Below the pieces are notes generated by a model, which was not told the DNA's origin, did no database searches, and saw only the letters and a list, made by a program, of their open reading frames with translations. A stretch of DNA of 64,000 nucleotides from Halorientalis sp. IM1011 (lineage in GTDB: Archaea > Halobacteriota > Halobacteria > Halobacteriales > Haloarculaceae), in the NCBI RefSeq assembly GCF_001989615.1, contig NZ_CP019067.1:868001-932000 (forward strand). The letters run 5' to 3'. The translations under genes and the position numbers were made by a program. The stretch's first letter is position 1. Each line of letters opens with the position of its first letter. Below, piece by piece: positions 20,451-21,091 of this stretch.

Positions 20451-21006
20451 GCGGTTCGTTCGTACCGCACCGGGGCGGAGATTTGAACTACGCGAACACG
20501 GTCTCTCCCTGCGGTCGAGCGTGCGTGTTCTCTCGTTCAAATTCCTGACGGCGTCTCCACTCACCGTATTGGTTCGTGGAGAACGCCGAGGAGGAGATTT
20601 GAACTACGCGGAGACGTTCCGGGCGTGCGGACTCGCTTCGCTCGGCCGGTCCGGGGCTGCGACTCGTCTGCTCAAATCTCTCGATTGCGTTTCCACTCGC
20701 CGTGTTGGCTCGTGGAAAACGCCGAGGAGGAGATTTGAACCACGCGGAGACGGTCACTCACTTCGTTCGCGCTGCGACTCCTCTTATTCAAATTCCAATC
20801 ACCGTTCTGCCGACGGTACCGACTCGCGTAGCTCGTCGGGTTACGTCGGCAGAAGCGCCGAGGTGGAGATTTGAACCACGCGGAGACGGTCCTGCTCACT
20901 CGCTTCGCTCGTTGCGCGGGCTGCGACTCCTCTCGTTCAAATCTCCTGCGGATCATTCGCGGCGCTGACGGTTCGCTTCGCTCACCGTAATGCACCGCGA
21001 AAATGA
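20451..21006 (-). repeat. Array of four hairpin units carrying copies of the tRNA-Ser 3' end
   Basis: Read from the tRNA gene outward on the minus strand, four units follow the intact tRNA-Ser. On the plus strand each unit starts with GGAGATTTGAAC at 20477, 20593, 20729 and 20865 and ends with the near-complementary (G)TTCAAAT(C/T)TCC at about 20545, 20680, 20796 and 20946. The tRNA itself has the same block at 21016, giving spacings of 116, 136, 136 and 151 bases. The acceptor sequence GCCGAGG/A precedes the block in units 2-4. Inside each unit is a second stem: GAACACG/CGTGTTC in unit 1, GGAGTCG-type/CGTCTCC in the others. Linker hairpins lie between units (20551-20586, 20687-20722, 20804-20856, 20953-21006), each with its own paired sequence. 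No believable protein is encoded. Confidence 0.8.
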
Positions 21007-21091
21007 CGCCGAGGAGGAGATTTGAACTCCTGAGTCCGTGAGGACAGTTGCTCTCGAAGCAACCGCCTTGGCCAGGCTAGGCTACCTCGGC
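21007..21091 (-). tRNA. tRNA-Ser (anticodon CGA)
   Basis: The minus strand folds as a class II tRNA. The acceptor stem is GCCGAGG (21085-21091) paired with CCTCGGC (21008-21014), with discriminator G at 21007. The anticodon arm is GTTGC-TTCGAGA-GCAAC, giving anticodon CGA (codon UCG). A long variable arm (TGTCCTCACGGACTC) identifies serine, and the T arm is AGGAG-TTCAAAT-CTCCT. There is no intron, and CCA is not encoded. It is the parent of the hairpin units that follow it. Confidence 0.96.

Follow-up and report, generated by a model that had tools for sequence, protein, structure and literature searches.

A tandem array of tRNA-tailed hairpin units behind tRNA-Ser(CGA) of Halorientalis sp. 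IM1011 belongs to a widespread haloarchaeal family of candidate gene-less DNA cassettes

The window analyzed here is a 64,000 nt stretch of the Halorientalis sp. IM1011 genome (NZ_CP019067.1, positions 868,001 to 932,000), in which a tRNA-Ser(CGA) gene is followed on its 3' side by four short, hairpin-forming units (20468-21006, minus strand). About 97% of the haloarchaeal genomes tested contain the same kind of element, located next to most tRNA isotypes. The favored interpretation, which is given an even chance, is that these units are DNA insertion cassettes devoid of genes that build up step by step at the 3' ends of tRNA genes. It draws on the sharp direct-repeat borders of the units, arms that are specific to the adjoining tRNA, the gain and loss of whole units with decay at the distal end, and the preservation of pairing together with conserved unpaired bases in the absence of an RNA-type G-U bias.

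The tRNA-Ser(CGA) gene that anchors the array (21007-21091; ARAGORN, and Rfam RF00005 with 54 bits) lies on the minus strand, as do all of the units, and the part of it that is copied is the tail from G53 to N73. Read along that strand, each unit begins with hairpin A and a spacer. Next comes a segment in which the T-loop and some of the T-stem are copied in inverted orientation (GGAGATTTGAAC, here called anti-T), then hairpin B, and last the 3' end of the tRNA, copied in direct orientation. In the tRNA-proximal unit 4, hairpin A (TCATTTTCGCGG...CCGCGAATGA) and the spacer occupy 20948-21006, as judged by sequence, fold and layout, followed by the anti-T AGGAGATTTGAAC (20935-20947), the inner hairpin B (GGAGTCGCAG...GACCGTCTCC, 20876-20934), which is matched in the host genome by the covariance model R1 (see below) with an E value of 2.5e-19, and the tail copy (TTCAAATCTCCACCTCGGCG, one mismatch, 20856-20875). 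Unit 3 (20740-20855) has hairpin A (TCTGCCGACG/CGTCGGCAGA) at 20799-20855, anti-T at 20786-20798, then hairpin B, and a tail copy without mismatches at 20720-20739. The tail copy of unit 2 (20584-20603) is likewise free of mismatches, and the body of this unit (20604-20719) comprises hairpin A (TTTTCCAC/GTGGAAA) at 20683-20719, anti-T at 20670-20682, and hairpin B. In the distal unit 1 (20488-20583), hairpin A (CTCCAC/GTGGAG) lies at 20546-20583, anti-T at 20535-20545 and hairpin B (GAACACG/CGTGTTC) beyond it; its tail copy (20468-20487) is the most diverged, with three mismatches, and forms the distal end of the array. Tail copies were recognized by sequence, and the bodies of units 1 to 3 by sequence and R1. 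A cassette would accordingly comprise about 75-130 bp from hairpin A to hairpin B plus the 21-bp tRNA tail, and contains no genes. In an Rfam search of the array only the tRNA was matched, the remaining matches having E values of at least 1.8.

The initial annotation of this DNA had proposed four units next to tRNA-Ser(CGA), linker hairpins that differ in sequence but stay paired, and inner arms that change while remaining complementary. Tail copies and inverted T-arm copies were located for all four units, the linker hairpins are where they had been placed, and the inner arms are as described in unit 1 and read GGAG.CG/CG.CTCC with a U-U mismatch in units 2-4. It had also proposed that each unit carries the T-arm/acceptor sequence and its complement, which holds for the T-loop and for some of the T-stem, whereas a complement of the acceptor is absent.

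The direct copy corresponds exactly to the 3' end of the tRNA from G53 to N73 (21 nt). Across 183 units, its identity to the tRNA is 0.98 at G53 but 0.72 one base upstream, and lower beyond; at the other end it remains at 0.92-0.99 up to the discriminator N73, and drops to 0.54 one base past it. The inverted copy, which spans about T54 to C63, has 2.06 mismatches per 12 positions to its own tRNA, compared to 3.35 ± 0.08 when the tRNA labels were permuted (115 units). At positions where the tRNA and the adjoining copy differ, the inverted arm follows the tRNA in 53 cases and the copy in nine, a ratio that does not separate the models because most of the differences reflect decay of the distal copy. 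Since the arms are tRNA-specific, the question arises of how a mobile or duplicating sequence comes to carry its target twice, once in direct and once in inverted orientation. The inner parts are shared more freely: a long, branched hairpin B is common to tRNA-Ser(TGA) and tRNA-Thr(TGT) of the host and to tRNA-Gly(GCC) of another genome (G085), in each case with arms that match the tRNA concerned, and in the tRNA-Ser(CGA) arrays of different species hairpins A and B are variously combined. A likeness to tRNA-derived short interspersed elements (SINEs), which had been suggested for the units, was rejected, as only the last 21 nt are copied, without a promoter or the whole tRNA body, and the copies stay beside their own tRNA and are not dispersed. 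At the right ends of units at seven loci (L119, L142, L163, L197, L075, L087 and L020), T-loop copies with one extra base (TTCACAATCC, TTCACTATCC, TTCATAATCC, TTCGATATCC) were seen; these recur in different tRNAs and genomes, as if the extra base inactivated that copy.

In the folded unit, the inverted T-loop pairs with the direct T-loop copy to form a stem of 10-12 bp (P1). Beyond it there is a small internal loop in a few recurrent forms, then a second stem, P2 (GCCAG/CTGGC, GGAG/CTCC or GGAAG/CTTCC), a U-U mismatch, two C-G pairs and a CAG/AC internal loop, and finally a tip of variable length with tandem G-A mismatches and a GAA triloop. Many tips read GCGAAGC, the motif of DNA mini-hairpins of extraordinary stability (PMC4686876, PMC10527192). 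The compensatory base changes proposed in the initial annotation are real, and covariation among aligned units is very strong. Twelve of 24 pairs change on both sides among ten host-genome units (score 0.403, against 0.187 ± 0.026 after shuffling), and 22 of 24 vary on both sides among 140 distinct units (0.385 against 0.134 ± 0.005), in which 92.4% of cells are paired. The shuffled control is inflated by sequence relatedness; sliding the partners, which preserves relatedness, gave a score of no more than 0.059 for the 140 units. Unpaired positions (the U-U, CAG/AC and GA-GA mismatches) are also conserved. The 656 nt minus-strand array folds with z = -7.8 (20 shuffles), while single units are unexceptional (z from +0.03 to -2.4 versus shuffles), so that support for the structure comes from recurrence and covariation.

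Strong covariation, location on the same strand as the tRNA, near-universal presence in Halobacteria and conserved internal loops would all suit a functional structured RNA, either a trailer produced by read-through from the tRNA, which the initial annotation had suggested looking for, or a decoy that by mimicry of the T-arm binds tRNA-processing enzymes or regulates the tRNA. This explanation is judged improbable. Mispairs in P2 and P3 comprise 19 G-U and 15 A-C, and those in P1 (excluding the loop-border pair) 62 G-U and 46 A-C, whereas the acceptor and T-stems of the tRNAs at the same loci have 58 G-U and no A-C; the preference for G-U over A-C expected of a structured RNA on its transcribed strand is therefore not seen in the units. 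As the covariance model itself favors G-U, the lack of bias is a conservative result. Being so unlike the tRNA stems, the near balance argues against an RNA function on the tRNA strand and speaks for a constraint acting at the DNA level, although it is no proof, as weak selection combined with recent mutations would give a similar picture. The RNA explanation is further weakened by the presence of anywhere from zero to five copies at orthologous tRNAs within one genus, by the lack of an Rfam match to the units, and by a T-rich stretch directly at the end of 57 of the 122 unit-bearing tRNAs, which is compatible with termination ahead of the units.

A DNA search of the host genome with the array revealed 12 further places, nearly all of which directly follow the 3' end of another tRNA gene (Phe, Gly, Leu, Pro, Ser-TGA, Glu and Lys). 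R1 was built by aligning ten host-genome units and assigning their structure by hand, and detected 32 places in this genome, where the element lies behind most tRNA isotypes. Two of the 32 (L033 and L034, at tRNA-Lys(CTT); C1:9526-12596 and C1:3371256-3374326) are identical and lie close to the two ends of contig C1, which probably reflects an assembly overlap left untrimmed in a circular chromosome. Among 30 host loci examined, 29 follow the 3' end of a tRNA encoded on the same strand; the remaining locus (L027) has the tail of tRNA-Arg(TCG) and is parted from that tRNA by an integrated element of 12.8 kb. When genomes were sampled across the class, R1 matched 189 of the 194 haloarchaeal genomes and 62 of the 65 genera, and of seven genomes that were weak or negative, three remained without a match under laxer filters; divergent forms are under-counted since the model derives from host-genome units only. 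The best loci newly taken from other haloarchaeal genomes were all behind a tRNA (29/29, one tRNA gene being broken by assembly gaps), as were 30 of 31 from six further genomes and the phylum search. That search, covering 120 genomes of the phylum, gave matches in Halobacteria only, and about 100 non-haloarchaeal genomes of the phylum had no match. A search of plasmids gave four matches, of which two follow a tRNA, one lies within a tRNA and the fourth has no tRNA. As the initial annotation had supposed from the window, the units form a structured family that has multiplied next to tRNA genes, and it is present in nearly all haloarchaea. Neither of the results named there as a refutation, an absence of such arrays from other haloarchaea or a lack of significant covariation, was obtained.

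Several other observations concern the surroundings of these loci. Hairpin B (GCGAGTCGCAGCGCGAACGAAGTGAGCGACCGTCTCGC or similar) was also found away from tRNA genes and without T-loop arms (L074, L077, L079 (Halocatena pleomorpha), L080, L086 (YIM A00010) and L260 (a Halomicrobium urmianum plasmid)), mostly next to further palindromes and to stretches of A or T. At tRNA-Arg(CCG) of G085 (L154), about 920 bp with an open reading frame (ORF) for an unknown protein lie between two tRNA-tail copies, resembling a gene-bearing cassette. Virus- or plasmid-like clusters of about 10-20 tRNA genes packed within about 4 kb occur in the host (C1:2240734-2244630) and in another genome (G167:C4:112978-117118, L175), with no R1 match listed for either.

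Integrases usually leave behind a direct repeat made of the 3' end of the tRNA (PMC8371274), and the G53-N73 copies have that form. That the units are attachment-site scars, i.e., remnants of ordinary tyrosine-integrase elements, is nevertheless extremely improbable, in agreement with the initial annotation. They are about 75-130 bp long, gene-free, and carry no integrase gene or remnant, and scars would not have one covarying hairpin in common over some 190 genomes; their spread and covariation already contradict this explanation. A true case is available for comparison in the same genome, namely the 12.8-kb element in tRNA-Arg(TCG) (L216, C1:2893000-2907000). It encodes a tyrosine-recombinase-like ORF, its repeat starts only in the T-stem, and a pre-existing unit has been displaced to its far end.

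The downstream regions of nearly all tRNA genes were compared in three congeners. Orthologous tRNAs carry from zero to five units, and the differences are whole units, e.g., zero versus three at tRNA-Gly(GCC), four versus one at tRNA-Leu(TAA), and zero, one and five at tRNA-Val(TAC). At tRNA-Leu(CAG), which has no unit in the host and one in G167, the host sequence that begins directly behind the tRNA shares 95.6% identity with the G167 sequence that follows the unit. These counts are lower bounds because several tRNAs scored as empty hold degenerate units; others, namely those for Ala, Asn, His, Ile and Val (GAC), have, by eye, neither a unit nor hairpin A. Among the 50 arrays of at least two units, mismatches number 1.78 in the final tail copy and 0.40 in the rest (25 arrays to 3, p = 3e-5), a distal decay that fits entry next to the tRNA, or homogenization within arrays.

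Apparent growth at the tRNA-proximal end and repeat borders that are sharp on both sides also recall a Cas1- or transposase-like insertion of the casposon/CRISPR type, in which the tRNA would serve as the leader and the 21-bp tail would be a target-site duplication, and casposases do insert at the extreme 3' end of tRNA genes (PMC6977970). However, their target differs from the G53-N73 repeat seen here, such systems have nothing that corresponds to the inverted T-loop copy inside the units, and no casposon-type terminal repeats were noticed in the units, making this explanation very improbable.

If the units are insertion cassettes, they are probably joined when a folded DNA hairpin recombines at G53|T54, with a logic like that of the attC sites of integrons. 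A new cassette would enter the T-loop at this junction beside the tRNA, shifting older cassettes outward, and its 21-bp tail (G53-N73) would leave the upstream tRNA gene complete. The tRNA would take the role of attI, and a host or trans-acting recombinase may recognize the hairpin of the folded single strand, in which P1 would rebuild the T-loop half-site, followed by an unpaired spacer and then P2 with its bulges and variable tip. Cassette loss could occur by recombination between short direct repeats, and inner hairpins could be swapped between tRNA loci by crossover in the T-loop core, which is near-identical across tRNAs, with the tRNA-specific outer bases staying in place. On a plasmid of Haloarcula halophila (NZ_CP119561.1; L257, locus about 1428-1570), within a cluster with 17 other tRNA genes, hairpin B interrupts a tRNA-Cys gene precisely at G53|T54, without duplication of the tail, and this marks G53|T54 as the junction. 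The cassettes are most likely selfish or neutral, but may be beneficial to the tRNA locus. A broader proposal, of a haloarchaea-wide, integron-like system that is not an integron, with the tRNA T-loop as landing site, a T-loop-rebuilding single-strand hairpin as incoming site and a host recombinase that adapts cassettes so that their arms match each tRNA, is rather unlikely.

The most serious rival requires no dedicated recombinase: arrays would lengthen and shorten through ordinary homologous or microhomology recombination, together with template switching at quasi-palindromes, which would also keep the arms complementary. Identical tandem units (at tRNA-Glu of G167, tRNA-Lys of G137, and units 1 and 3 of tRNA-Leu(TAA)) are readily accommodated by it, deletion at short direct repeats has been documented in Haloquadratum (PMC3119063), and the balanced G-U and A-C mispairs fit templated correction. 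Such correction would, however, remove the U-U, CAG/AC and GA-GA mismatches, and yet these are conserved; the restriction to tRNAs, the exact G53-N73 borders and the inner hairpin common to many tRNAs are also not accounted for by this process alone. This alternative is considered unlikely.

Several points weigh against the cassette interpretation. No enzyme was identified for the movement of cassettes, the integron integrase model TIGR02249 scored over its cut-off in none of 59 haloarchaea and had no match in the host genome, and viral contigs (searched with two patterns) and phage records gave no match. The DNA folding energies of individual units are ordinary. All differences between congeners of the zero-versus-n kind could be explained as deletions, insertion into a never-occupied tRNA not being among the observed cases, and a transfer of cassettes from one tRNA to a different one, with arms that match, would require a further step beyond the model. 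Near-universal presence is also unusual for a pure parasite.

The units also account for repeats at tRNA ends that might otherwise be mistaken for integration scars. If selection is responsible for them, then haloarchaeal tRNA genes bear an unknown accessory module; if recombination of a folded strand is correct, it would represent a second, independent case of integron-like logic, with many natural landing sites per genome. Either reading can be tested in Haloferax-type strains.

No description of the units was found in the literature searched, where the nearest accounts are those of SMR-A elements, casposons and, in reviews, tyrosine recombinases, and the family appears to be undescribed. 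Among bacterial sequences, the rtT repeats of the Escherichia coli tyrT operon are similarly arranged in tandem behind a tRNA gene, each with about 19 bp from the 3' terminus of the tRNA, but are confined to one operon and have neither an inverted T-arm nor a hairpin family that crosses isotypes. REP and BIME sequences are also short hairpins without genes, which keep conserved mismatches and spread as DNA; they are not tied to tRNA genes, and their arms are not copies of the target. The SMR-A elements of Haloquadratum walsbyi are closer, being haloarchaeal, gene-less, palindromic repeats of about 110 bp with a strict target and an unknown mobilizing agent (PMC3119063). They have inverted ends and target IS605-type/PATE palindromes without making direct repeats, whereas the units target tRNA genes and have a 21-bp direct repeat and target-specific arms. 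Casposons share insertion at archaeal tRNA 3' ends with direct repeats (PMC6977970), but are kilobase elements with genes, including Cas1, terminal inverted repeats and duplications of 14-15 bp, unlike the gene-free units with their 21 nt repeat inside the tRNA. The attC sites of integrons have self-paired R boxes, an unpaired central spacer, extrahelical bases and a variable terminal structure (PMC2727003), and the units resemble them in shape only, with self-paired ends of about 10 nt, an unpaired spacer, a bulged inner stem and a variable tip. The sequence likewise varies with pairing retained, and the inner ends of P1 are mostly AAC/GTT; the RYYYAAC/GTTRRRY boxes of integrons are not reproduced, however, as the unit ends are GATTTGAAC/GTTCAAATC, with AAC/GTT mostly present but the fourth P1 pair being G-C and not Y-R. 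Like integron arrays, those described here are tandem cassettes behind a fixed site in which distal cassettes are older, and they differ in being gene-free, in lacking an integron integrase, and in having the tRNA T-loop as the fixed site and arms that are specific to each tRNA.
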